Notes under the pieces: model-generated | What the model saw: the letters and a program-made list of their open reading frames with translations, nothing else | The model's database searches: none | What the model was told of the DNA's origin: nothing | Translations under genes and position numbers: made by a program | Shown here: piece after piece, positions 1-18,866 of the stretch | Layout of the letters: each line of letters opens with the position of its first letter | How positions within the stretch are numbered: position 1 is the stretch's first letter | Source of the DNA: a virus | Virus record (IMG/VR): IMGVR_UViG_3300018416_000106 | Coordinates: 1-25,190 of that record | Reading direction: 5' to 3' (one strand) | DNA length: 25,190 nt

Positions 1-3000
1 ACTATTAATGGTTTCGGTGATAATCAAAGACTGTATTTTGGCGATGCTAAGGAAGCATCGATACGACATACCTCTGGTGGTACAACTGTTATTGAAGCAG
101 GGGCTACTGAATTAGATCTTGATGGTGGTGGTCATTTATTAATAAAAAATAATGTTGGTGGCGCGAAAATTGCAGAATTTACTCCTTTTGCAGGTGTCGA
201 TCTATATCATGGAAGTGTGAAAAAATTCGCAACAACTGATTCTGGTGCTTATGTAACAGGTAACCTTACTAATGAAGGTAATATTCGTGTACAAGGAAAC
301 GTATTACCTACTGCAGATTCTACATATGATCTTGGGGATTCAAATTATAAATGGAAAGATTTACATCTTTCCGGTAGTACAATTTATCTAGGCGACGTCA
401 AACTTCAAGATAGTGGTGGAAACTTTAGGGTTACAAGCCAGACTGCCTCTAGTTCTATAATGAAGGCAGACCAATTCCATGTTGATTCAGCAGTTAGAAT
501 AGCACAAGATGGCTACATAGAATTTACTCCTACAGATTACCTATCAGCACCATCAAGACAAGAGGGAAGATTATGGTATAATGAAGATGCCAAGACTTTA
601 TATCTTCAAGGTGCTGGATCAGATTTTGATATTCAGATTGGTGAAAGAGAATGGGTAAGAGCTAGAAATAATACTGGTTCAACTATTGAAAAAGGTAAAC
701 CAGTTTATATAACAGGGGTTCATATACCAGGTCATCCTGTTCACGGTCATCATCCTCATATCGCATTAGCGGACGCGTCTGATGTAGCTAAAAAGGATGT
801 TCTTGGTATTGCTGGAGAGGATATAGCACCTAACAACCATGGTTACGTAGTTATTCGTGGTTATATAGATGGTATCGATACATCCAATTTAGTAGAAGGT
901 GCAAGAGTACATCTAGGATTTTCAAGTCCTGGTAGTTTAACATCAGCAGCTCCTGAATATCCAAATTATCCTATGGACGTCGGAACATGTCTAACCGCCG
1001 ACTCTGCTGGTGCTGGTGGCGCGCTTTATGTTACTATTTTTGACCATACCTTTGAAAGATTCCGTGTTACAGGCGGCGCAAGAGTTGATGGAAACGTTAC
1101 TATTGCTGGAAACCTAAACGTTCTAGGAACACAAACCGTTTCTTCGACAGGTGCTTTGTCAGTAGACGACACATTTATCTATCTTGGCGGTGGAGATACA
1201 ATAGGAACAGTTGGTACTAACTTTACCGGATCCGGTTTAAATGATGCAGAAATTAACGGACACTTCAATGGTGAAACTGCAACTAGCTACTATGTTCGTA
1301 TTAAGGAAAGCGATGGATCTGGTAATGATGTTATTGAATTTGCTCTTGATTCTGATTTTGCATCGATTATAGACTTTGATTCAAATGGTTCCGGATTATC
1401 TAGTTGGAATTTATCGGGCGACGGTTTAACCGCTTCTTTGAGAGACAACCAGACTATTACCTTTACTGCTTCTTCAGGTCATACTGTTGGGGATCGTTGG
1501 TACGGTCAGGCTTCTCCTATAAATGTTCAGATTGGTATTGCTGGTAACTATAATAATCCTTCGGATTCATATGCACATTCAGGATTATTTAGAGACGTAT
1601 CAGACCAAAGATGGAAATTCTTTACAGGGTATCAACCAGAACCAGAAGGAAATATTAATACTAGTGATCCTACATTTGCCTTTGCAGATCTTCAATTTAA
1701 TACGGCATACGGTAACCTAACTGGTAATGTCGAAGGTGAGGTTTCCACATTATCAAATCATAATACCGGTGATTTATCAGAAGGATCAAATCTATATTAT
1801 ACGACTGCTAGACATGATTCAGATACAAATATATTAGTAACAAAATCTTTTGTCGATGCTCTAAATGTAGATGCTGATACTCTAGATGGGTTAAATAGTC
1901 TTCAATTCCTAAGGAGTGATTTAGCTGATACTGCTTCTGGTGATATAACTTTCACCGGTGTAATTGATGCACAAAATGTTGTTACAAATAGTACTTCTGA
2001 TTTAGTATTAAAAACTTCTTCCGGTAATACATTCAATCTACGTAAAGATAATAACAGCGAACTTATCCAGGTCGATAATGATACTGGTGTAGTTGAATTA
2101 TATCATAATGGTAATAAAAAATTAGAGACTGTAGCAACAGGTATTACGGTTACAGGAGAGGTAAATGCAGATTCTGCTACATTCACTGGTGATATCGATG
2201 TAGGTGGACAATTTACTACTGTAACAACAGATGGTCTTACAGAGGGATCAACAAACTTATACTATACAACTGCTCGCGTAGATTCAGACTTTGATGCATC
2301 ATTTGCTTTAGCATCAACAGATAGCTTAGGTGAGGGATCTACAAATCTATACTTCACTGAAGCAAGAGCTAGAGCTAGTTTAAGTGCATTAGGTGATTTA
2401 TCATACGATCAAGGTACTGGTACATTTAGTATTGATGTTGAAACAATATACACCAAGGCAAACTTTGATTCCGATTTAGGCTTGGCAAATACAGGTCAAC
2501 TCCCAGAAGGTAATAATTTATATTACACCACTGCTCGAGTCGATTCAGACTTTGATGCATCATTTGCTTTAGCATCAACAGATAGTTTGGGCGAAGGATC
2601 AACAAACTTATACTATACAACTGCTCGATTTGACAGTGACTTTACTGATAATAATACAGATCAGCTAAGTGAGGGATCTACAAATCTCTATTACACTACT
2701 GCTCGCGTAGATTCGGATTTTGATGCATCATTTGCTCTAGCGTCAACTGATAGCTTAGGCGAAGGCGCTACAAATCTTTACTATACAACCACTAGATTTG
2801 ATAGTGATCTTGCAGCAACTGATTCGCTTTCCCTCAATTATCTAGATCTTTCAAAGGGAATCAATAGAACATATTCTGGTCGGGATAGTGACACTGTTGG
2901 TCCTGCTTCTGGCATTGATAGTTCTGGTGATTCTATTGTTAATCTTTATGTCCGGTCAGGTACTAAAACTACTAATCATAGACATTATGGAAACGGATCT

Positions 3001-3414
3001 CTAAACGGATATTTCATTGCTTGGGATAACGCAAGTAATCTAAATACATCATTAGAATTAGAATCACCTCATTTAGATCTTGTACCTGGTGTAACTTATA
3101 GATTCCACACAGATGATGCTTCTATGAGTACACATGATGTACGATTCTATTATGATGATGAAAGAAATAGTTTAGTAGCCGATAGTGCTGCAGATATAGT
3201 TTACTCAGGCACTGCTGGTGTATCTGGAGCTTATTCTCAAATTCGAGTAAAAGATTATGGTCCTAGATCTATTTCATATCAATGTCTAAATCATCCTTAT
3301 ATGGGTAACTCTGTGGTAACTAATGCAACTGGAGGATCTAGAATTTGGGGTACATCAACAGGTATTATTGTCGATGGAAATATCGAAGGAACCATCGATG
3401 GTGGAACATATTAA
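1..3414 (+). CDS. Large tail-fibre / structural protein, 5' end outside the window
   Basis: The reading frame is open from base 1 to the TAA at 3412-3414 (1137 codons visible), so the true start lies upstream; the GTG at 217 is an internal Val. Visible modules, in order, are: a PTADSTYDLG...KWKDL fibre motif (about 304-365); a REWVRARNNTG beta domain containing a His cluster (about 646-1060); further beta-rich segments; seven LxEGxxNLYYTxxR repeats (about 1780-2800); and a C-terminal cupredoxin-like domain (about 2940-3330) with C-x2-H-x2-M codons at 3283, 3292 and 3301. These modules are typical of long trimeric fibres of marine T4-like phages, so a fibre or baseplate-appendage role is the best reading. 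No catalytic motif is visible. The exact fibre type cannot be named without the N-terminus. A late promoter follows directly downstream, so this gene probably ends a transcription unit. Confidence 0.85.
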   Translation, partial: TINGFGDNQRLYFGDAKEASIRHTSGGTTVIEAGATELDLDGGGHLLIKNNVGGAKIAEFTPFAGVDLYHGSVKKFATTDSGAYVTGNLTNEGNIRVQGNVLPTADSTYDLGDSNYKWKDLHLSGSTIYLGDVKLQDSGGNFRVTSQTASSSIMKADQFHVDSAVRIAQDGYIEFTPTDYLSAPSRQEGRLWYNEDAKTLYLQGAGSDFDIQIGEREWVRARNNTGSTIEKGKPVYITGVHIPGHPVHGHHPHIALADASDVAKKDVLGIAGEDIAPNNHGYVVIRGYIDGIDTSNLVEGARVHLGFSSPGSLTSAAPEYPNYPMDVGTCLTADSAGAGGALYVTIFDHTFERFRVTGGARVDGNVTIAGNLNVLGTQTVSSTGALSVDDTFIYLGGGDTIGTVGTNFTGSGLNDAEINGHFNGETATSYYVRIKESDGSGNDVIEFALDSDFASIIDFDSNGSGLSSWNLSGDGLTASLRDNQTITFTASSGHTVGDRWYGQASPINVQIGIAGNYNNPSDSYAHSGLFRDVSDQRWKFFTGYQPEPEGNINTSDPTFAFADLQFNTAYGNLTGNVEGEVSTLSNHNTGDLSEGSNLYYTTARHDSDTNILVTKSFVDALNVDADTLDGLNSLQFLRSDLADTASGDITFTGVIDAQNVVTNSTSDLVLKTSSGNTFNLRKDNNSELIQVDNDTGVVELYHNGNKKLETVATGITVTGEVNADSATFTGDIDVGGQFTTVTTDGLTEGSTNLYYTTARVDSDFDASFALASTDSLGEGSTNLYFTEARARASLSALGDLSYDQGTGTFSIDVETIYTKANFDSDLGLANTGQLPEGNNLYYTTARVDSDFDASFALASTDSLGEGSTNLYYTTARFDSDFTDNNTDQLSEGSTNLYYTTARVDSDFDASFALASTDSLGEGATNLYYTTTRFDSDLAATDSLSLNYLDLSKGINRTYSGRDSDTVGPASGIDSSGDSIVNLYVRSGTKTTNHRHYGNGSLNGYFIAWDNASNLNTSLELESPHLDLVPGVTYRFHTDDASMSTHDVRFYYDDERNSLVADSAADIVYSGTAGVSGAYSQIRVKDYGPRSISYQCLNHPYMGNSVVTNATGGSRIWGTSTGIIVDGNIEGTIDGGTY
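715..765 (+). other. His-rich segment in the large fibre protein
   Basis: The translated segment has the pattern HIPGHPVHGHHPHI, with six His in 14 residues, inside an otherwise ordinary beta domain. Dense His of this kind can bind transition metals. The T4 long-fibre tip gp37 is known to bind iron through HxH motifs, but this segment is not homologous to gp37 as far as I can see. Metal binding here is inference. Confidence 0.5.
1780..2810 (+). repeat. Seven LxEGxxNLYYTxxR fibre repeats
   Basis: Seven copies of a motif of the form L-x-E-G-(S)-x-N-L-Y-Y-T-T-A-R begin near 1780, 2236, 2329, 2500, 2587, 2665 and 2755. Three copies are followed by an almost identical VDSDFDASFALASTDS linker (about 2278, 2539, 2708), and these are also near-identical at the DNA level. 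Tandem repeats of this type form shaft segments in marine phage fibres. The DNA identity could allow unequal recombination and change of fibre length. Confidence 0.85.
2940..3335 (+). other. Cupredoxin-like domain, copy 1 (C-terminus of the large fibre protein)
   Basis: The segment has the strand pattern LDLVPGVTYRF, then STHDVRF with a candidate copper-ligand His, then ISYQCLNHPYMGN. The last gives C-x2-H-x2-M with Cys at 3283, His at 3292 and Met at 3301. This spacing equals the amicyanin type-1 copper loop. Copper binding has not been shown. Confidence 0.65.
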
Positions 3415-3472: not shown

Positions 3473-4690
3473 ATGGCTACTAGTATTAGACTTAAAAAGT
3501 CCTCGGTTGCAGGTAGGGCTCCAACTTCATCAGATCTTGCTTATGGCGAACTTGCCCTTAACTATTCTGATGGTATTCTCTATTATAAAAATTCATCAAA
3601 TTCTGTTTCTAGTATTTCCGGCGGAGGTGCTACTACAGATAGCGATGCGCCATCCGGGGGATCTGTTAGAGATGGTAATTTATGGTGGGATGCTACTAAT
3701 GGTAGATTAAAGGTTTATGTAGATGACGGTGATCCGTCCAGTACTCCTATTACTGTATCAATGACGGTAGATGGTGGGGCAACTACTAATACCTATTATG
3801 AATTCTCAAATGCTTGGACAGATAGAACTGGAACAAAGTCTACAGGATTACAAGATCCGAATATTGTAATTCAACAAGGTGATACAATAACCATTACTAA
3901 TAGTGTGAATGGTGTTCATCCACTATTTTTTGTGACTGCTCTAGGATTAGGTGACACATACGACTCTTCCTATAATGTAGAACTTCCAGCATCTAATTAT
4001 GGCGGTGGTACCGGTACAGTTTCTTATCAGTTTAATAGTCCGGGAACATACTATTATATCTGTAGCGTACATTCAGATATGATAGGGACAATTACAGTTT
4101 TAGATTCCGGAACAGCTTCTAAACAATGGGTTGATGCTTTCCAAACTGGTAAAGGATATACCGGTTCAGCTGGAGCAGTTACTCAATCTGATTCTGCACC
4201 AGTTAGTCCAACAGGAGGTCAGATCTGGTATGATACGGCAACTGGTAAAGCATTTATCTGGTACATTATCTCTGGAAATGGTCAATGGGTATTATTCTCA
4301 GATCCAACAGTAACAGATGGTGATACTGGTTATACAGGTTCTAGAGGCTATTCAGGTTCTCGAGGTACTATCTCACCAAGAATTATTAATTTTTTGACAC
4401 CTAGTTCTCTAGACGAAGTAACAGTTTTTTATACACCTTCTCAACTAACAGTCTCGGAGGTAAGAGGTATAATTAGAGGTAGTACAGATCTAACTTATAC
4501 TTTAAATTATGGAAATAGAAATGCTGCTGGTACAGTTATAGCTACAGATACTGTTAGTAGTACTACTACCGGTGACATAGCGGTTATTTCAAATTCAGTA
4601 ATACCAGCAAATAGTTGGGTTTGGTGTGAAGTTACCAGTGTAAATGGTAGTATTAATGAATTTTCACTTAATTTGACATTTAGCGAGTAA
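3473..4690 (+). CDS. Tail-fibre protein with inserted cupredoxin-like domain and collagen-like repeats
   Basis: The protein has 405 residues. The N-terminus (IRLKKSSVAGRAPTSSDLAYGELALN, split here only by reading) matches the recurrent phage fibre pattern R-x-K-x-S...P-x-x-x-L-x-x-G-E-L-A-x-N, thought to be an attachment module. Next comes an LWWD...GRLKVYVDDGD segment whose expected continuation, SKQWVDAF, resumes only after a cupredoxin-like insert. That insert spans residues about 90-215, with ligand candidates His149, Cys197, His200 and Met203. A second module, IWYDTATGKAFIWY...GQWVLF, repeats the LWWD theme. Short GYTGS/GYSGSRG collagen-like runs and a beta-rich C-terminus follow. A purine-rich AGGAAAG lies 4-10 bases before the ATG, and a late promoter lies upstream. 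It is a structural adhesin or connector; the exact position on the virion is unknown. Confidence 0.8.
   Translation: MATSIRLKKSSVAGRAPTSSDLAYGELALNYSDGILYYKNSSNSVSSISGGGATTDSDAPSGGSVRDGNLWWDATNGRLKVYVDDGDPSSTPITVSMTVDGGATTNTYYEFSNAWTDRTGTKSTGLQDPNIVIQQGDTITITNSVNGVHPLFFVTALGLGDTYDSSYNVELPASNYGGGTGTVSYQFNSPGTYYYICSVHSDMIGTITVLDSGTASKQWVDAFQTGKGYTGSAGAVTQSDSAPVSPTGGQIWYDTATGKAFIWYIISGNGQWVLFSDPTVTDGDTGYTGSRGYSGSRGTISPRIINFLTPSSLDEVTVFYTPSQLTVSEVRGIIRGSTDLTYTLNYGNRNAAGTVIATDTVSSTTTGDIAVISNSVIPANSWVWCEVTSVNGSINEFSLNLTFSE
3740..4118 (+). other. Cupredoxin-like domain, copy 2 (inserted)
   Basis: Canonical order is seen: QQGDTITITN strand, His149 in GVHPLFF, then YYICSVHSDMIGTITV with Cys197, His200 and Met203. 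The His-to-Cys distance of 48 residues is close to plastocyanin, while C-x2-H-x2-M matches amicyanin. The domain splits the LWWD...QWVDA module of the host protein. Confidence 0.7.
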
Positions 4691-6020: not shown

Positions 6021-9000
6021 ATGGCAATTGCTAATTTAACAAGAGAGATATCGCTAGCGCTAGACTCAGATTTTCTAGGTTTACCGGTACAACATCATAT
6101 TTCAAATGATGGCTATTGGTATACATACCACCCATCTGATTTTGATTCTAATAATGTTTTAGCTGGAAATTCTATAATTGCTTATGAATGGGATAGCGTT
6201 CTTTCTGTTGTAAGTGCTGATCGGTTATCTGGTGGTCACTCAATAAACCAAATAGAAACTGATGGAACTTTTGGGTTTATTGACGATTCCCATGGTGTTC
6301 CTGATGTTGCAGGACTTATTGATTACAGATATCATGGTGGATCCATTGTGCACATTGGTCCTGGAGTAAATGATATTACCGGTCAGACTGAAACCGATGC
6401 ATTTATGATGGCTCATTTAGGAACCTTTGGAGATGACAACACATCAGCGTTCTTACCTGGCGGTGGTTCTCTTGAAGACGATGCATTCTATTGGGATAGA
6501 ATCTATTTAGCAAGTGGTGCGTCCGATTGGGCTTTTTATCAATATCATAAACATCTTCCTTCAAACTATCTAAAATTTGATGATGGTCGTGTAGTTTATG
6601 AAGCCGACGGATATATCAATCCGTCGGATAAAGAATATGGATATATGATTAGTATACAAGCAAATAGTGGCGGCAAAGCATATGCTGTTCCACTTGCTCG
6701 TATTCATACACCCTCTGTTGGTGGTGCCCATAATTCCCATAATGATGTTACCCTACCAAATACGGCTGGTATTAATTATGTCGCCGGTGGAATCCTTAAA
6801 GGTAGCTCAAACCGATTCCATGCGTTCTATCTAGATTCTGCGGCAGGAAATACCTGGAACGTTTATTCTCGTACATATACTACTTCATCCGGAGCATTTA
6901 CTCCTGAAGTAAGTTATGGCGCATATGATATTGCCAATCCAAATTTTGACCCATATCCTACAGGAGATCAAGATGGCGAAGGAACACAAAGTGGTGTAAC
7001 TTTAAAAGCATCTAGTGGTCACGTCTTTGGATCTAAAATATATATTCCTGTTACTATGAAAGCTATAGTAAGATCATACGCCATGGCAGTGGAGGCGGTT
7101 AATGCTAATAGATATCAAATCTCAGGATCTGATAGGGAAGGTAGTCAGCCATTAGTACAACAACCGACAATGAAAATTAAAGTTGGTGATACCCTTACAA
7201 TTGAAAATCCCCAATATAGTGCACATCCCATGTATATTCGGACTAGTACTAGTCTTAGTCCATCTTTTTCAAATCATAACGTGGCTGGCGCTAGCGGAGG
7301 AGGATTGGGTAGTTCTACCCTAACATTTACCCCTACATCAGCAGGAACTGTATATTACGTTTGTTCATTACATAGCGGGATGTATGGAGAAATTATAGTA
7401 TCTGAAATAGAAGGTAAGTATGATCAGCAAATTTGGCGAATGACTGATGCAAATACAATTTCTCCTGGTACCCTAGAAAGAATTGATTTACCTTATAAAT
7501 TTCATGGAACTGATGTAAAATCTGATGTATTAATTACTAGTGTTGGTTCAAAAATGTATGTTGCCGCGGCTGGTACATACCCATATGGTGATGGTGGTGT
7601 AGTTCTTTATAGTACTGTCGATGGGGATTCTACGGGCTCATATACAGAAGAAGGACATATAGTTACAAATATTTCCCCAGAAAGCAAACGAAACCAATTA
7701 AGATTACATGGTTTTAAATATAATGCATCTAATACTAAATTTTATTGTCTAATCAGCGGGAATACTGACTCTTCCCTTGGCGGATCAACATTTACCGGTA
7801 AAGGTTTATATAGTTTTGATTTAGCTGGCGGTTCATATGATGGATATGAGCATTTGGATTGGAATACTACTTCTGGGCATTTACAAACTAGAGGGGTTTT
7901 AACTTCAGGACATCTTTCATATGATCATGCTACTAGTGTTATTTCATATGTAAATTCTCCAGAACCTGAGGGTATTCCGAATGGTACTTCTATTCTTCAA
8001 TGGGATGTTGCTTCCCCTAGTTTCTTTAATAGAAAAGAAATTAATACTAATTCAGAAGAATATTATTTCCAGGGAATATATCTTAGTGATGGAAGAAAAG
8101 CCCTAGTTGGACGGGTAGAAGGACATGAAGATAATACAGGTGGGGCGAATACCGGAGATATTCTTTTAACAATTGTTGATAACCAAAATAATGCTGTAAG
8201 TTATACTTTTAATGCAACCGGTGACGATTTTGTTACAGGAATTATTGAAGATGTTGAAAATGACAGATTGGTTCTATCTGGTTATGCAAAGGGTGAATTA
8301 GTATCAAAGGGACAACAATGGGTACACGGATGGGCTAGAAACGTACATCAAAGTAATGATTCTGCAGCATTAAGATTTACAGATATTGTTAGAGATTCTG
8401 ATGGAGGATATCTAGTATCAGCAATTGATGATCTAAATAAAGATCCTAACATTTATAAATTTGATCAAAATTATTCCTGTATAGAATCTAAATATTTTTC
8501 TATAGGAGCTGAATCTAGTGGTTTCGAAAATATTACAGTCCTAGATGATAATAGTTATATCGCTTCTGGCTATACGTATAATGGTACTACCGAAAAACAT
8601 GGTTATATAACTAGATTCGATTCTTCTAGAACTACTATAGATTGGGCAAAAAGATTCTTTTCTGTTGGAGGTAACTATCATAATATTGTAGATCATACGA
8701 TTGTAAAAAATGCTGGTATAGAATATATTGTCGGTTTTGCTACAGATCTAAATGCTGATTCTGATGTTTATACAAAGGGTATACTATTTACTGCAGATAT
8801 TAATGGTAACGTATTAACTGCAAAAACTACTAGTTCGATTTCCACTACTAAAGATACTTTTGAGCGTACAAGCAGCGGCTTTCAACTAGATCAAAATGAT
8901 GTATATATTAATAAAATTATACCAGGGAAACCAAACTCTGGTGAATTTCTTTTTGCAGGAACCCACGGCAAAAGTACTGCTATAACTCCGAGTAAAAAGC

Positions 9001-11405
9001 AACTATTCGGTTTCGGTAGAGTCCAAGATGCTGACTTAGTTAAGATGGTTATGGCAACATCTGATGATCACATCGCTGATTGGAATACTGCTGATAGTGA
9101 TCAAATAAGTTGGGCAGAATGGAAAAATCTTGCTTTATTAAAATATGATAGTTCAGCAGAAAGTGTAAATGGTGCATATACGTATCAGGTAGTATTAGTT
9201 GGATCTACAAGTAATTCTACTGATGATGGAAGAATACCACTTGTCGCTAAAGTCAAATTTAAAGATAGTGGGGGTGATTTCTTTGCAGAGGTTCCATGGG
9301 TTAATACAATTAGCACTACTTACGGATCTACTGAATATCTTTCATCAGTATTAGTAGAAGATTCAGATCAAAGAGATTGGTGGTGGAATGAAACAGCATT
9401 CTTCCATAATGGTAATAAAAGAATTATCATAGCAGGAAGTGGTACTGATCTAGATAGTGATGCTATTCACCCTGACTATACTAATGATATCTTAATGCGG
9501 CGTGATACATTTATGGTTATGCTAAATGATTCCGATGGTACTTTAGAATGGAGAAATTCATTCGGTCATATGGGTCAAGATGATATTAATAAGTCTATGG
9601 TTTGGGATGCACATGATAGAAATGCTGTTGTAGTAGGATCTTCAACTTCTCACTCAGTAGGTCAGGATGGTGTCTTATTTAGATTCTGGAAAGATGGATG
9701 GGGACAAGGAGTATATCATACTGCAGCTTCTACTTCTAATGCCTATTATTACGATTCGGCTCATTTACAATCTATAACTTGTCCAGTGGCACAAGACCCA
9801 TTTGCAGGAATACTCGATTATACTTCTGCTAATGCTAGTCATGAAGTTAATCTTTATCAGAACGGGGGTACAGCTGCTAGAGACGGTCTAACATTTGCAG
9901 GGGGATCTTTCAGTTCTGCTGATATAGGTACTTCCATTATCGATAGAACAACTGTAGCAACAGATTATAATGGATCATATGGAGAAAATGGTCTCTTTAC
10001 AGCATTCTTAGCGATCGTAGATAAAGCTAAATTGCAAGAATTTAAAAACACTGAGACTTTTCAAAATAATATTGCAGCAGGTAAAACTATACACAGTGCA
10101 GATGATGTATTCGAAATACATCAAATTTCAACTGTAGGAGATGCAACTGCTGATGATGGTAATATATTTGGATATGATGTTATTAAATCAGCTGATGGAG
10201 AGTATTACTATATAGCAGGTCAGACTTCTGGTAATCTAGCAAAACAAAATACTGGTCAATCAGGTGTTTATGATTATACTGTCTTCCAGTGGGATATCGC
10301 TAGTAAACAATTTAGAATATGGCAAAATGGTACAGCACAGGATGAAGAAATTTATGCACTAACTGAACTTCTACCACCATCTTATCATGTTACAAGCAAC
10401 GAAGCAACCGATAATGGATTATCAGTAGGTACTGTTAGCTGGATCCCTGGATCAGTTCAAACTGCATATTATCAGTGTGGGCAGCACGCGGGGATGAACG
10501 GCCAGATTACTATCGATGCAGCAAGTGGTGGTGCACAGACATTTAATATCGAAATTTCATATGCAAATGCTCCTGGTGCATTCAGATTTATCGGAAATGA
10601 TAGAAATGGTTCAATTAACTCAGCTACAGATAATCCTACACTTACATTTAGGGTTGGTGATACTATTAATTTTAGGGTTAACTCTGTAAACCATCCATTC
10701 CATATCCAAACACAAGCTGGATTATCCGGAGTACGAAATGGTCATATAGCATTTACTGGCAGATCGACCGGTAGTCTTGGGGGTCATACAAATCTGGGTG
10801 GATATGATATATTCTTAGGTATTCTAGATCCTCTTAATTGGAACGCATCTTATTATCAAAATGGGTCAGGCTTTAATGATAAAGGTATGAATTTACATGA
10901 TATATCTGCACATAAAGATGATACCTTATCAATTGTATATACTACCTTTGGTTCGGTAAATGGTGGTAATACATTTGGATCTGAAGATATCGGTGTTATA
11001 AACTTCCACTATAATCTAGATAGTTGGGACGTCGGGCAATCAACAGGATCAGAAACTTCTGAAGAAATTGAACAGAATGGTAAACCAAGTACCCTATTAC
11101 AAGATGGAAGGATAGCGGTGGTTTGTAATACATCTGGTGCATTTGCAGATAATTCAAATACATTTGGTTTATTAGATATGGGATTAGGTATATTTGATTT
11201 AGATAGTGACGGAAATGGCAATTATAAAGGTTGGAAAAAATACCAGGTTGGATCCGGATCATCTGACTTTTCATATAGTGTAGATAATAATGGTTCTACT
11301 TTACTTTTAACCGGTTACTCTGAAGCTACGTGGGATAGAGCTGTACATGGGGTGTTTGTTGAATTTGATCCTGAAAGAAACATATTAGCAAAAAGGGCAG
11401 GATAG
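6021..11405 (+). CDS. Giant beta-propeller appendage protein with two inserted cupredoxin-like domains
   Basis: The protein has 1794 residues, the largest complete gene here. Most of it consists of repeated strands such as DGGYLVSAI, NSYIASGY and RIIIAGS, each followed by a polar loop and a D/W-x-x-R/K-F strand, as in seven- or eight-bladed propellers. Near the C-terminus, SBBP-like repeats of the form T-S-G-x-L/F...G-x-x-D-x-x-x-x-x-x-D begin near residues 1399, 1580 and 1702. A cupredoxin-like insert in normal order lies at residues about 345-462 (His402, Cys448, His451, Met454). A second lies at about 1452-1571 with its halves in reversed order (Cys1486, His1489, Met1492, then His1558). 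AGGAA is 8 bases before the ATG. No peptidase or lyase motif is visible. The likely role is a host-binding or scaffold appendage on the tail; the function is inferred from fold and context only. Confidence 0.7.
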   Translation: MAIANLTREISLALDSDFLGLPVQHHISNDGYWYTYHPSDFDSNNVLAGNSIIAYEWDSVLSVVSADRLSGGHSINQIETDGTFGFIDDSHGVPDVAGLIDYRYHGGSIVHIGPGVNDITGQTETDAFMMAHLGTFGDDNTSAFLPGGGSLEDDAFYWDRIYLASGASDWAFYQYHKHLPSNYLKFDDGRVVYEADGYINPSDKEYGYMISIQANSGGKAYAVPLARIHTPSVGGAHNSHNDVTLPNTAGINYVAGGILKGSSNRFHAFYLDSAAGNTWNVYSRTYTTSSGAFTPEVSYGAYDIANPNFDPYPTGDQDGEGTQSGVTLKASSGHVFGSKIYIPVTMKAIVRSYAMAVEAVNANRYQISGSDREGSQPLVQQPTMKIKVGDTLTIENPQYSAHPMYIRTSTSLSPSFSNHNVAGASGGGLGSSTLTFTPTSAGTVYYVCSLHSGMYGEIIVSEIEGKYDQQIWRMTDANTISPGTLERIDLPYKFHGTDVKSDVLITSVGSKMYVAAAGTYPYGDGGVVLYSTVDGDSTGSYTEEGHIVTNISPESKRNQLRLHGFKYNASNTKFYCLISGNTDSSLGGSTFTGKGLYSFDLAGGSYDGYEHLDWNTTSGHLQTRGVLTSGHLSYDHATSVISYVNSPEPEGIPNGTSILQWDVASPSFFNRKEINTNSEEYYFQGIYLSDGRKALVGRVEGHEDNTGGANTGDILLTIVDNQNNAVSYTFNATGDDFVTGIIEDVENDRLVLSGYAKGELVSKGQQWVHGWARNVHQSNDSAALRFTDIVRDSDGGYLVSAIDDLNKDPNIYKFDQNYSCIESKYFSIGAESSGFENITVLDDNSYIASGYTYNGTTEKHGYITRFDSSRTTIDWAKRFFSVGGNYHNIVDHTIVKNAGIEYIVGFATDLNADSDVYTKGILFTADINGNVLTAKTTSSISTTKDTFERTSSGFQLDQNDVYINKIIPGKPNSGEFLFAGTHGKSTAITPSKKQLFGFGRVQDADLVKMVMATSDDHIADWNTADSDQISWAEWKNLALLKYDSSAESVNGAYTYQVVLVGSTSNSTDDGRIPLVAKVKFKDSGGDFFAEVPWVNTISTTYGSTEYLSSVLVEDSDQRDWWWNETAFFHNGNKRIIIAGSGTDLDSDAIHPDYTNDILMRRDTFMVMLNDSDGTLEWRNSFGHMGQDDINKSMVWDAHDRNAVVVGSSTSHSVGQDGVLFRFWKDGWGQGVYHTAASTSNAYYYDSAHLQSITCPVAQDPFAGILDYTSANASHEVNLYQNGGTAARDGLTFAGGSFSSADIGTSIIDRTTVATDYNGSYGENGLFTAFLAIVDKAKLQEFKNTETFQNNIAAGKTIHSADDVFEIHQISTVGDATADDGNIFGYDVIKSADGEYYYIAGQTSGNLAKQNTGQSGVYDYTVFQWDIASKQFRIWQNGTAQDEEIYALTELLPPSYHVTSNEATDNGLSVGTVSWIPGSVQTAYYQCGQHAGMNGQITIDAASGGAQTFNIEISYANAPGAFRFIGNDRNGSINSATDNPTLTFRVGDTINFRVNSVNHPFHIQTQAGLSGVRNGHIAFTGRSTGSLGGHTNLGGYDIFLGILDPLNWNASYYQNGSGFNDKGMNLHDISAHKDDTLSIVYTTFGSVNGGNTFGSEDIGVINFHYNLDSWDVGQSTGSETSEEIEQNGKPSTLLQDGRIAVVCNTSGAFADNSNTFGLLDMGLGIFDLDSDGNGNYKGWKKYQVGSGSSDFSYSVDNNGSTLLLTGYSEATWDRAVHGVFVEFDPERNILAKRAG
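7050..7405 (+). other. Cupredoxin-like domain, copy 3 (inserted in a propeller blade)
   Basis: Strand KVGDTLTIEN, His402 in SAHPMYI, then YYVCSLHSGMYGEIIV with Cys448, His451 and Met454. The flanks KIYIPVTM and KYDQQIWRMTD read as consecutive propeller strands once this segment is removed, so it looks like an insertion. Confidence 0.65.
10372..10735 (+). other. Cupredoxin-like domain, copy 4, apparently circularly permuted
   Basis: The C-terminal half comes first: YYQCGQHAGMNGQITI with Cys1486, His1489 and Met1492. The N-terminal half comes second: FRVGDTINFRV and then VNHPFHI with His1558. The flanks EIYALTEL and NGHIAFTGRSTGSL match consecutive strands of the SBBP-like blade pattern. The segment therefore sits as an insert whose new ends fall just after the first ligand His of a normal cupredoxin. 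Confidence 0.55.
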
Positions 11406-12605
11406 ATGGCTATTTTAAATTTTCCAGTTAATCCTATACATGAACAATCATATAGTGCCAATGGGGTTGATTATACTTGGGATAGCGACACCAGTTCTTG
11501 GTTATCTGGAGGTGTGGCAGGATATACAGGATCACAAGGTTATACTGGGTCAAAGGGATCTGGGTACACTGGCTCTAGAGGGGATCTGGGATTTACTGGA
11601 TCGGCAGGCGATCTTGGTTATACCGGCAGTGAGGGAACAGGGTATACTGGTTCTTCTGCAGCACAGGGATTAAAATATAGATTTGATACCACTACCGGCA
11701 GTCTTACCTCTACTGCTTCTGGTCATATCCGATTCGATGCTTCTCCTGGATCTGCAACAAAATTAGCTTTTCACAAAACAGGATACGATGGAAATCCTCA
11801 TAATGGATTTTTGCAGACCTGGGACGATTTTGGCAATTCTTTAATTGGATATGGATATATTCATATTAGATCAGCAGATACTTCAAGTTCTGATTTCCTT
11901 CTTTTTGCTATGGATAGCGATGCAACTACTACGACAGACCATGTTACAGTAGGCGTAAATCCATTAGCAGGTTCAGCATCTTTTAGTAATGATGAAGATA
12001 TAATTATTCAATTTAACCATTTAGCAGAAGGTATTCAAGGACCAATTGGTTTTACCGGATCGCAAGGTGATATTGGTTTTACCGGATCTAGAGGCGATAC
12101 TGGCTTTACTGGATCGCAAGGTGATATTGGTTATACAGGATCGCAGGGCAATAATGGGGCAGATGGTTCATCAGTTACTGTTTTAGGGTCGGTTGCAACA
12201 GTTGGAAATCTCCCGTCAGTAGGCAATACTGTGGCTGATGCATATGTCGTACAGGCAGACGGCCATCTTTATGTTTGGGATGGATCAGCATGGCAAGATG
12301 CTGGAGAATTTAGAGGATATACTGGATCCCGTGGTAATATTGGCTTTACCGGATCTAGAGGTGATACTGGCTTTACGGGATCGCAAGGTGATATTGGTTA
12401 TACAGGATCTAGAGGTGATACTGGCTTTACCGGATCAAGAAGTACAGCTATAGGATATACCGGATCGAAAGGTGATATTGGTTATACCGGATCCGCAGGT
12501 ACTAATGGTTATACTGGATCACCAGGTACTAATGGCTATACCGGTTCAGCGGGCCAGGTTGATCCAGGTCAAGCAGTACTATTTGCTTTAGTATGGGGAG
12601 GATAA
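11406..12605 (+). CDS. Collagen-like tail-fibre protein
   Basis: The protein has 399 residues. The start LNFPVNP...YSANGVDYTWDSDTSSWL is the same N-terminal pattern as in the gene at 4695. Gly-x-x repeats of type GYTGSxG/GFTGSRG/GDIGYTG fill residues about 39-85, 214-252 and 306-390. Between them lie a globular beta segment (about 87-205; IRFDASPGSATKL...GYIHIRS) and a SVGNTVADAYVVQADGHLYVWDGSAW module (about 262-303, quoted only in outline). Collagen-like Gly-x-x tracts form triple helices and trimerise phage fibres. The end (GQAVLFALVWGG) is short and hydrophobic, perhaps joining the next tip protein. The ATG directly abuts the upstream TAG, with GGGCAGGA just before it. It is a virion fibre; the ligand is unknown. 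Confidence 0.8.
   Translation: MAILNFPVNPIHEQSYSANGVDYTWDSDTSSWLSGGVAGYTGSQGYTGSKGSGYTGSRGDLGFTGSAGDLGYTGSEGTGYTGSSAAQGLKYRFDTTTGSLTSTASGHIRFDASPGSATKLAFHKTGYDGNPHNGFLQTWDDFGNSLIGYGYIHIRSADTSSSDFLLFAMDSDATTTTDHVTVGVNPLAGSASFSNDEDIIIQFNHLAEGIQGPIGFTGSQGDIGFTGSRGDTGFTGSQGDIGYTGSQGNNGADGSSVTVLGSVATVGNLPSVGNTVADAYVVQADGHLYVWDGSAWQDAGEFRGYTGSRGNIGFTGSRGDTGFTGSQGDIGYTGSRGDTGFTGSRSTAIGYTGSKGDIGYTGSAGTNGYTGSPGTNGYTGSAGQVDPGQAVLFALVWGG
11520..12575 (+). repeat. GYTGSxG collagen-like repeat blocks
   Basis: Three blocks (about 11520-11658, 12045-12162, 12312-12575) of 9- and 18-base-type units encode Gly-x-x triplets dominated by GYTGS, GFTGS and GD(I/T)G. At the DNA level GGATC occurs repeatedly in the Gly-Ser codons. 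The near-identical units could mispair during replication or recombination. Short versions of the same units occur in the gene at 3473 (about 4155-4370). Confidence 0.85.
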
Positions 12606-15602: not shown

Positions 15603-18600
15603 ATGATGAAAATAGCGATTATTGACCTTTTAGGTCTTACATATGATGGTTCTACATTATCAAAAAGAGGATTAGGCGGATCTGAATCAGCAGTTATCCT
15701 CATGTCAAAGGAATTAGTAAAGATAGGATTTGATGTTACTGTCTTTAATAATTGTATTGATTCAGAAGCCAGCCCGGGCGAATATGATGGTGTAAAATTT
15801 ATAGATCATACCCAATTTAAAGATAATATCAATTATGATATTATTATTTCTTCAAGATCTGTTTATCCTTTCTTTTCTGATAACAAATACGCAAGAGTAT
15901 GTGCAAATGCCAAACATAAAATAGTTTGGATGCACGATACTTTTTGTGAAGGTGATAATCATATTGAAGATATGCTAAATCAAGGGGCAATAGATGAGCT
16001 ATTTACCTTATCAGATTTCCATTCTTCTTATGTTTTAAATTGTGATCATGGTAATAAAAGAAATTTTGAAGTTCTAAAAAATAAAATTTTTATGACAAGA
16101 AATGGTGCAGTTAAACATATTAAAGAAGTTGATCTTAATAAAAAAGATCATAATATGTTTATTTTTAATGCTTCTGTTACTAAGGGATTAACTCCTTTAT
16201 TAGAAGATATCTGGCCAGAGGTAAAAAAGAATATCCCGGCCGCACACCTAACTGTAATAGGTGGTTACTATAGATTCAGAGAAGGTGCAGAGCCAGATGC
16301 TCAAGAGAAAACCCTTCGGAAATTTGTAGATGAATATCCAAAGGAAATGGATGTTACCTTTACTGGTGTAATACCACAATTTGAAATAGCAAATCTTTTA
16401 GCAAAATCTACCTTTATGATATACCCAGCAGATTTTCCAGAGACTTTTGGCATATCTTCACTTGAATCTTTATTATATAAAACACCTATTATTACATGTA
16501 ACTTTGGGGCTTTAGAAGAAACTGCAATTGATTTAGCTTGTTATAAAATTGATTATGCAAATATGCCAAATAGTTTATTTCCAAATATTAATCGGAAAGA
16601 CCAAGCTAAGAAATTTATACAGAAGACTATTCAAGCTTATAAAGACAGATATCTTTTGCAGCAAAAACAAAATTATTGCGATGTTGTTGATGATGTTTAT
16701 GGCTGGGATACAGTTGCTTTACAATGGAAACAACATTTATATAGAAAATTAGAAAAATATTTACCGGTTAATGAATATAGAGAAGTAACTCGTATTAATC
16801 AAAAGGTTGCAAGAATATATGGTAGAAGATTTGCAAATCTAGAAGAAAGAGAAGTATACCAGAGTTTCGGAAAACAAAATAGAATTATTATTATCTCTCC
16901 ATATCGTAATGCTGATAATTACATTATAGATCATTGTTTATCTATTGATCAACAAGACTATGATAACTATATGCATATAGTAATTGATGACTGTTCGGAT
17001 TATGCAATACAGCTACCTCAAAGCGATAAAAGACAATATATTAGAAATGTAGAAAGGCGCGGTTGTATTGCTAATCAACTTATGGCATTTAAAAAATATG
17101 TCAGAGATGATGACATTGTTATTCTTTTAGATGGCGATGATTTCCTAGTTAGCAATAATACACTATTTCACTATTATAATGATTGTTATAATAACGGCAT
17201 AGAATTTACATATGGTTCATGCTGGAGTATGGCAGACGAGATACCATTAGTTGCGCAGGATTATCCAGCAGAAGTAAAAGCAAATAGATCCTATAGGAAG
17301 CATCATTTTAATTGGATAATTCCTTATACACATCTTCGTACATTTAAGGGTAGTCTTTTAAAAGATTTAAATGAATCTATATTTAAAAGGGATGGTGAAT
17401 TTATGATGAGTGGTATGGATAATCCACTTTTTTATGAATTAATTGAAAAATGTGATCCGGATAAGATCAAAGCAGTAAAAGAAATAATGTGTTTTTATAA
17501 TGATATAAATCCGTTAAATGATTATAAAATACATTCAGATGAACAGAACTTAAACGTTGCTGTAGCACTAGGTAATGAAAAAATGAAAAAAATATTAATT
17601 GCTATACCTACTAATAAATATATAGAGCCTGAAACATTTAAATCAATTTACGATTTAGATATTCCTGATGGTTTCGAAACTCAATTTGAATTCTTTTACG
17701 GATATCAAATTGATCAAATAAGAAATCTAATTGCTGATTGGGGTAAAAAATACGATTATCTTTTCTGTGTTGATAGTGATATTATATTACCTAAAGATTC
17801 TTTAACAAAGCTTTTAAAAGCAAATAAAGATATTATATCTGGTCTTTATATTCAAAGAAAATATGGACAACAAATACCGGAATTATTTAAAAGGGTATCT
17901 ACCGGTACAATTCATTATGATATTAATGAACTTATTTCTGGTGTTATGGAGGTAGATGCATGTGGTTTTGGGTGTGTTTTAATAAAGGGTCACGTACTAA
18001 AAGAAATGCAATATCCACATTTCTTATATAGGTCCTCAATCGATTTTAACGATACTGAATCTGAAGATACATATTTTTGTAGAAAGGCAAAGGAAAATGG
18101 GTATTCTATTTGGGCAGATACAACTATAGTTTGCAGTCATAAAGGTACCTATGAGCATGTTCCTAAAGTGAATTCAGTACAGCCTGATGTATATGATGTA
18201 AAAGAAAGACTTAGATTTCTTTCTAATGAGAAACAACTTTTTCCAAGAGATCATGTAAATTATTTAAAAGAAATAAGCCGAGAATATACGCCAAAGGTAA
18301 TATATGATATTGGCGCTTGTGTTTTACATTGGACAAATGAAGCAGAAAAAATTTGGCCGGATTCTAAATTTATTGCTTTCGAAGCAATGGATGAATGTGA
18401 ATTTTTATATAAAGAAAAGGGTATAGAATATGCAATAGGTGCATTAGGAGATAAGCAACGAATAGTTGATTTCTATAAAAATACCTATCATCCTGCGGGA
18501 AATAGCTATTACCTACAGAATGTATTAGTCGCGCCGGAAACACCTCAATATTTTAATGAGTCGCATAAGATTAAGACCGGTTTAATGCCCTTAGATACTG

Positions 18601-18866
18601 TAGTTAAAATGGGTAATTTTCCTGCACCGGATTTAATTAAGATCGATGTTCAAGGTGCAGAAATGGATATCATAAAGGGTGCTCAAGAAACCTTAAAAAC
18701 AGTACAACATCTAATATTAGAACTACAAGAGGTAGAATATAATACTGGCGCACCGTTAAGAGAACAAGTAATTGATTATTTAGATTCTATTGGATTTACT
18801 TTAATTAAAAGATTTAGTAACAACGGTCCAGATGGGGATTATCACTTTAAAAGGAAAAGTGTATAA
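15603..18866 (+). CDS. Four-domain enzyme: three glycosyltransferase domains plus FkbM-type methyltransferase
   Basis: The protein has 1087 residues. Domain 1 (about 1-400) is a GT4-like GT-B fold, with the GLGGSESA loop at 23-30 and an E-x7-E motif at Glu280 and Glu288. Domain 2 (about 424-645) is GT2-like GT-A, with SPYRNADNYI, IDDCSD and the acidic DGDD at 510-513. Domain 3 (about 662-870) starts KKILIAIPTNKY and has a DSD motif at 724-726 in FCVDSDIILP, like another GT-A sugar-nucleotide transferase. Domain 4 (about 898-1080) has the FkbM/SAM pattern: YDIGA at 901-905, FIAFEA and IDVQGAE at 1014-1020. Together they could build and O-methylate a short glycan. The context suggests virion-fibre or host-surface glycans as substrate; this is inference. 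ATG is doubled (15603, 15606), with no Shine-Dalgarno sequence in the preceding 20 bases. Confidence 0.8.
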   Translation: MMKIAIIDLLGLTYDGSTLSKRGLGGSESAVILMSKELVKIGFDVTVFNNCIDSEASPGEYDGVKFIDHTQFKDNINYDIIISSRSVYPFFSDNKYARVCANAKHKIVWMHDTFCEGDNHIEDMLNQGAIDELFTLSDFHSSYVLNCDHGNKRNFEVLKNKIFMTRNGAVKHIKEVDLNKKDHNMFIFNASVTKGLTPLLEDIWPEVKKNIPAAHLTVIGGYYRFREGAEPDAQEKTLRKFVDEYPKEMDVTFTGVIPQFEIANLLAKSTFMIYPADFPETFGISSLESLLYKTPIITCNFGALEETAIDLACYKIDYANMPNSLFPNINRKDQAKKFIQKTIQAYKDRYLLQQKQNYCDVVDDVYGWDTVALQWKQHLYRKLEKYLPVNEYREVTRINQKVARIYGRRFANLEEREVYQSFGKQNRIIIISPYRNADNYIIDHCLSIDQQDYDNYMHIVIDDCSDYAIQLPQSDKRQYIRNVERRGCIANQLMAFKKYVRDDDIVILLDGDDFLVSNNTLFHYYNDCYNNGIEFTYGSCWSMADEIPLVAQDYPAEVKANRSYRKHHFNWIIPYTHLRTFKGSLLKDLNESIFKRDGEFMMSGMDNPLFYELIEKCDPDKIKAVKEIMCFYNDINPLNDYKIHSDEQNLNVAVALGNEKMKKILIAIPTNKYIEPETFKSIYDLDIPDGFETQFEFFYGYQIDQIRNLIADWGKKYDYLFCVDSDIILPKDSLTKLLKANKDIISGLYIQRKYGQQIPELFKRVSTGTIHYDINELISGVMEVDACGFGCVLIKGHVLKEMQYPHFLYRSSIDFNDTESEDTYFCRKAKENGYSIWADTTIVCSHKGTYEHVPKVNSVQPDVYDVKERLRFLSNEKQLFPRDHVNYLKEISREYTPKVIYDIGACVLHWTNEAEKIWPDSKFIAFEAMDECEFLYKEKGIEYAIGALGDKQRIVDFYKNTYHPAGNSYYLQNVLVAPETPQYFNESHKIKTGLMPLDTVVKMGNFPAPDLIKIDVQGAEMDIIKGAQETLKTVQHLILELQEVEYNTGAPLREQVIDYLDSIGFTLIKRFSNNGPDGDYHFKRKSV

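Follow-up and report, generated by a model that had tools for sequence, protein, structure and literature searches.

Can a cupredoxin be assembled in nature with its two halves in reverse order, and be carried as an insert within an unrelated fold? This question is raised by one region of the window, the whole stretch of 25,190 nucleotides analysed here, which is a piece (25 kb) of a T4-like marine myophage genome. Its terminase shares 74% identity with that of Phage C48C1 (Kyanoviridae) and about 45% with those of cyanophages. Azurin-type proteins have been circularly permuted as an engineering exercise. To our knowledge there is no natural cupredoxin permutant, and none was found as published in the open literature searched. 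A preliminary description of the window had proposed such a permutant inside a beta-propeller, in a 1794-aa ORF whose neighbours are fibre-like, collagen-like, neck, terminase and sheath genes. Our analysis makes it very likely that residues 1451-1572 of this protein are a permuted, folded cupredoxin inserted in a propeller. The features discussed below are as follows.

3761..4105, + strand: normal-order cupredoxin of a neighbouring ORF of 405 aa (Pfam PF00127)
6021..11405, + strand: propeller-type protein of 1794 aa, clustered with tail and structural genes (ORF translation, gene neighbours, Foldseek)
7077..7406, + strand: normal-order cupredoxin inside the 1794-aa protein, residues 353-462 (one 94.3-bit profile match)
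10344..10370, + strand: propeller strand EEIYALTEL preceding the insert (model strand 113-120; empty-site alignment with homologues L107 and L114)
10371..10736, + strand: circularly permuted cupredoxin module, residues 1451-1572 (split-and-swapped profile match; insert conserved)
10395..10517, + strand: original C-terminal half, strands 6-7-8, YYQC..H..M, residues 1459-1499 (HMM positions 65-107)
10476..10496, + strand: predicted copper ligands Cys1486, His1489 and Met1492, C-x2-H-x2-M loop (conserved columns)
10518..10538, + strand: new linker AASGGAQ, residues 1500-1506, from the old C-terminus to the old N-terminus (sequence)
10539..10733, + strand: original N-terminal half, strands 1-4, GDT...HPFHI, residues 1507-1571 (HMM positions 7-61)
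10692..10694, + strand: predicted copper ligand His1558 (conservation)
10737..10763, + strand: propeller strand NGHIAFTGR following the insert (model strand 247-253; empty-site alignment)

Order of the two halves

The sequence of residues 1451-1572 reads LPPSYHVTSNEATDNGLSVGTVSWIPGSVQTAYYQCGQHAGMNGQITID-AASGGAQ-TFNIEISYANAPGAFRFIGNDRNGSINSATDNPTLTFRVGDTINFRVNSVNHPFHIQTQAGLSGVR. The four ligands of a cupredoxin, His, Cys, His and Met, are all present, and in the translation of ORF 6021-11405 Cys1486, His1489, Met1492 and His1558 fall where they had been placed; amicyanin has the same C-x2-H-x2-M spacing. The strand with the first His does not lie ahead of the C-x-H-x-M strand. The ligand order is reversed, and we therefore describe the module as a permuted relative, not as an ordinary member of PF00127 or PF13473.

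A profile of length 108, built on a non-redundant set of 66 normal-order cupredoxins from related phages, matched the module as it stands in two pieces with their order swapped: profile 65-107 on module 11-51 (36.7 bits) and profile 7-58 on module 67-120 (43.3 bits). This bears out the proposal that the C-H-M half comes before the GDT...HPFHI half. When the module sequence was doubled, a single 79.2-bit match ran over positions 7-107 of the 108, so that no part is missing and none is duplicated. The two pieces were also recovered from the full 1794-aa protein in a search among 2560 ORFs, residues 1459-1499 on profile 65-107 (E 1.7e-8) and residues 1516-1571 on profile 8-61 (E 1.5e-10). As in a natural circular permutant, the halves are homologous to the parent family, swapped, complete in coverage and free of duplication. 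The old termini are joined by the short linker, and the new ones lie in the loop past the HPFHI strand; the break had been put just after the first ligand His, 10-14 residues too early, since it lies beyond that whole strand.

The normal-order phage family matched the solved structures of plastocyanin (1b3i, E 5e-6) and amicyanin (2gb2, E 2e-5), and the profile of the permuted family aligned with plastocyanin 2plt in swapped pieces (profile 89-113 on chain 18-41, 27-49 on chain 74-98). With these cupredoxins (PF00127) the module shares the ligand set His...Cys-x2-His-x2-Met and a strand-by-strand sequence match. It differs from them in its swapped halves, in the linker across the old ends, and in lying inside another fold and not being a free soluble carrier. 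Pfam returned no family at E <= 1 for the whole 1794-aa protein and none reaching its curated score for the separate halves of the module, and querying the PDB with the sequence of the raw region produced just one weak, irrelevant match. The PDB search and the whole-protein Pfam search both rely on sequence order; the blank Pfam result on the 1794-aa protein illustrates how sequence-order profile searches overlook a class of domain.

Cupredoxins of normal order stand nearby. That at residues 353-462 of the same protein gave a single match over profile positions 2-107 (94.3 bits) and is spanned by a match to PHROG 27200/9158 at residues 308-466, and that of the 405-aa ORF passes the Pfam PF00127 cut-off (24.0 against 21.2 bits). 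A further divergent, normal-order cupredoxin-like copy (STHDVRF ... YQCLNHPYMG) lies at the C-terminal end of the product of window positions 1-3414, a tail-fibre-like protein in which EGSTNLYYTTARVDSDF units recur.

Predicted fold within the propeller

AlphaFold2 modelled residues 1330-1702, from a shallow alignment of 14 rows, with a pLDDT of 81.7 and a pTM of 0.80 (1329 is added to the model numbering to obtain the protein residue). In this model, eight module strands in permuted order lie between propeller strands 113-120 and 247-253: those of the C-terminal half at 140-145, 151-157 and 160-170 (residues 1469-1474, 1480-1486 and 1489-1499), and those of the N-terminal half at 178-184, 193-195, 212-215, 219-225 and 231-234. 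Modelled alone, the permuted module was again compact (pLDDT 83, pTM 0.79). The halves might have belonged to separate folds, but this was not seen, the insert being modelled as one confident unit, and the reading is well supported that the two halves would fold into one barrel with one predicted type-1 copper site (His1558, Cys1486, His1489 and Met1492). Tail appendages are usually oligomers, as would suit a domain swap in which the halves complete barrels between subunits of the appendage and not within one chain. The compactness predicted for the single-chain module, with its linker of about 7 residues, argues against such a swap, which we consider very improbable.

The best solved structural match of the surrounding propeller, of which a part is modelled, was the beta-propeller enzyme CylK (PDB 7roo; Foldseek with the 1330-1702 model, E 1.8e-6). 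CylK is an alkylating enzyme, unlike the window protein, and the likeness is to the propeller. The blade had been called SBBP-like; the propeller stands on the match of the predicted structure to CylK, but the SBBP name does not, no Pfam family having been reached at E <= 1. Foldseek with the module alone found no match in the PDB at E <= 1e-3, and no cupredoxin, as would be expected when an order-keeping aligner meets a permuted topology; this blank provides no positive evidence either. Among viral proteins, the best structural match of the module was the predicted structure of the permuted S-CAM1 protein described below (E 7e-7, TM 0.63 over 95 columns).

What would be gained by permuting a domain that is to be inserted? 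The preliminary description had suggested that the permutation brings the two ends together, which is half right: in a normal cupredoxin both ends are also close together, at the pole away from the copper, and the normal-order copy at residues 353-462 appears loop-inserted as well. The permutation alters the position at which the domain is attached, the ends shifting to a side loop, and the copper pole should as a result face another direction than in the 353-462 copy.

Conservation, empty sites and origin

Homologues were sought in IMG/VR contigs by a swapped-order pattern scan and a profile of the insert flanks. The same insert, in the same propeller hairpin of the same protein, is present in 21 further contigs (22 with the window) from many metagenomes, and is thus conserved and not a one-off. 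Many of the pattern-scan matches are tandem normal arrays; whether all of them are was checked match by match, and those counted here are not. No isolated phage with a propeller-type permuted copy was found. Propeller homologues without the insert do exist (n=2): L107 reads EEIYALTEMANGKIAFVGRT and L114 reads EEIYALTEISTSGSSHWGEVAFVGRT, uninterrupted, showing that the flanks EEIYALTEL and NGHIAFTGR join without the insert, as had been supposed. A normal-order copy broken by deletion was sought and not found; the homologues keep an intact permuted copy with all ligands, and have empty-site relatives besides. On the evidence of these alignments and profile matches, residues 1451-1572 are shown to be a complete cupredoxin of the amicyanin/plastocyanin kind, permuted, in the hairpin turn of a propeller blade.

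The propeller-type modules have identities of 37-54%, differing at up to about 60% of residues, and all keep the four ligands, which are intact in every one of the 40 distinct permuted modules (40/40). Across the whole family, the most conserved columns are the ligand His, Cys, His and Met, the adjacent Pro and one Tyr. As the ligand columns are the most conserved and 139 of 149 distinct cupredoxin copies have HCHM complete, metal binding is probably under selection in the family, and we infer from sequence that the permuted module would bind copper. Where it could be estimated, dN/dS of the module was 0.01-0.29, indicating purifying selection, with the flanks about equal or somewhat lower.

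How could such a module arise? Tandem normal cupredoxin copies are common in these phages, and the spacing from Met to the next His is 60-68 in most permuted modules and 56-68 in tandem normal copies. If a segment were cut out of two tandem normal copies so as to begin with the rear half of the first and end with the front half of the second, it would be a ready-made permuted module, which may then have been inserted in the propeller loop. The common arrays and the equal spacing would also be expected if the region were a remnant of two tandem normal cupredoxins, each half deleted, whose remainder does not fold, and tandem copies are a possible origin of the segment. But such a remnant is hard to reconcile with ligands kept in 40/40 permuted modules, purifying selection on the module, profile positions 7-107 covered with no strand missing, conservation across deep divergence (37-54% identity) and a fold confidently predicted by AlphaFold2, and we give it very little credence. 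A chimeric assembly or a sequencing artefact confined to a single contig is refuted as the source of the module: the insert is found in 21 other contigs, drawn from many metagenomes, and an independent permuted copy is present in isolates of S-CAM1. The probability of such an artefact is negligible. What is seen is a recurrent natural circular permutation of the cupredoxin fold, not a broken gene.

A scan of 84,980 prokaryote species, with one genome per species, found only normal-order relatives, in Bacteroidetes. The closest cellular relatives of normal order that we found are those of marine Bacteroidetes (L208-L216; e.g. YYYQCGKHKNMVG), a possible source of the phage cupredoxin domain.

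Other permuted copies and possible function

Normal cupredoxins of the same domain family occur in the structural and tail-fibre genes of T4-like cyanophages (gp9 connector, tail fibre-like proteins, S8 peptidases), where, unlike in the window module, His comes first and Cys-His-Met follows. Another natural permuted cupredoxin is found in Synechococcus phage S-CAM1, in the subtilisin-like product AOV57849.1 (annotation: 'putative proximal tail fiber protein'). It resembles the window module in being inserted in another protein and in having all four ligands. Its break point is different, between strands 6 and 7 (the last two strands come first) and not between 4 and 6, its host is subtilisin-like and not a propeller, and its annotation does not mention the permutation. 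This subtilisin-type copy is present in about 37 IMG/VR contigs (about 38 loci with S-CAM1), and in one relative, L202, the site is empty. Thirteen of these contigs have a second permuted copy at another loop of the same protein, which is about 867-878 aa long with the second copy (except in the cut-off L139 and L161) and about 751-756 aa in the rest, which lack it. L141 and L142 are 94.6% identical apart from a permuted-cupredoxin insert of 114 residues. Across L141/L142, L137, L138, L144, L146-L150 and L160-L162, proteins that are otherwise about 83-95% identical either have or lack the permuted cupredoxin at one fixed loop.

In a nested type (L042, L058, L078), the permuted copy lies within a normal cupredoxin, in the loop just ahead of the ligand His, and its break point is nearly that of the window module. 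When the insert is omitted, the outer domain finds matches in 307 phage records, each covering 80% or more of the domain.

The best tree of the family needs at least 4 changes of cupredoxin order. AU tests do not reject grouping of all permuted copies (p 0.055), of propeller with nested (0.26), of propeller with subtilisin (0.11) or of subtilisin with L069 (0.15). The tree was consequently dropped as proof of independent origins, and independence rests on the differing break points: because two of these are clearly different, there are, by sequence comparison, at least two separate permutations, and the tree suggests that there may be more. In L032 (ORF from 5297), cupredoxin copies have another kind of insert, Ala/Thr-rich stretches that separate strand 6 from strand 7. 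In L174, L175, L177, L179, L180, L183 and L186, cupredoxin back halves are found with no clear front half upstream and an incomplete front half after them; these may be degenerate or may represent another permuted type.

Rearranged fold elements in a phage structural protein have a precedent in the HK97-like capsid fold of BPP-1, although the permutation there is non-circular and the fold is different from that of cupredoxin (PMC5701804). Taken together, our data raise the possibility, to which we give almost an even chance, that marine T4-like phages repeatedly build permuted cupredoxins, with at least two break points and in at least three host contexts, as plug-ins that come and go at set loops of tail proteins, with the orientation of the copper site determined by the permutation. 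The shifted ends would turn the domain and its copper site relative to the host fold, unlike in the normal-order copy of the 1794-aa protein.

As to function, our guess, which we hold as possible rather than probable, is that the permuted module serves a tail-region adhesin as an exposed display or contact element stabilised by metal. The metal site could instead serve electron transfer, or copper capture and delivery at the host surface, and not stabilisation of a display. The intact type-1 ligand set would suit such roles, and the closest solved relatives, plastocyanin and amicyanin, are electron carriers. Against them, no redox partner gene was seen within the window, and cupredoxin domains are present in many copies within structural proteins; we consider electron transfer or copper capture unlikely, and less likely than a display or contact module.

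These phages supply natural permutants of two break points, together with homologues whose site is empty and near relatives that either have or lack the insert, so that the way a permutation arises, the loops that tolerate it and the reorientation of a metal site become directly testable.

Two other genes of the window are worth recording. The product of positions 11406-12605 is collagen-like, with numerous Gly-X-Y units (GYTGSRGDTGFTGS) and a score of 79.8 bits for Pfam Collagen, and at positions 15603-18866, amid structural genes, a single 1087-aa ORF fuses glycosyltransferase-like parts with a methyltransferase-like part.
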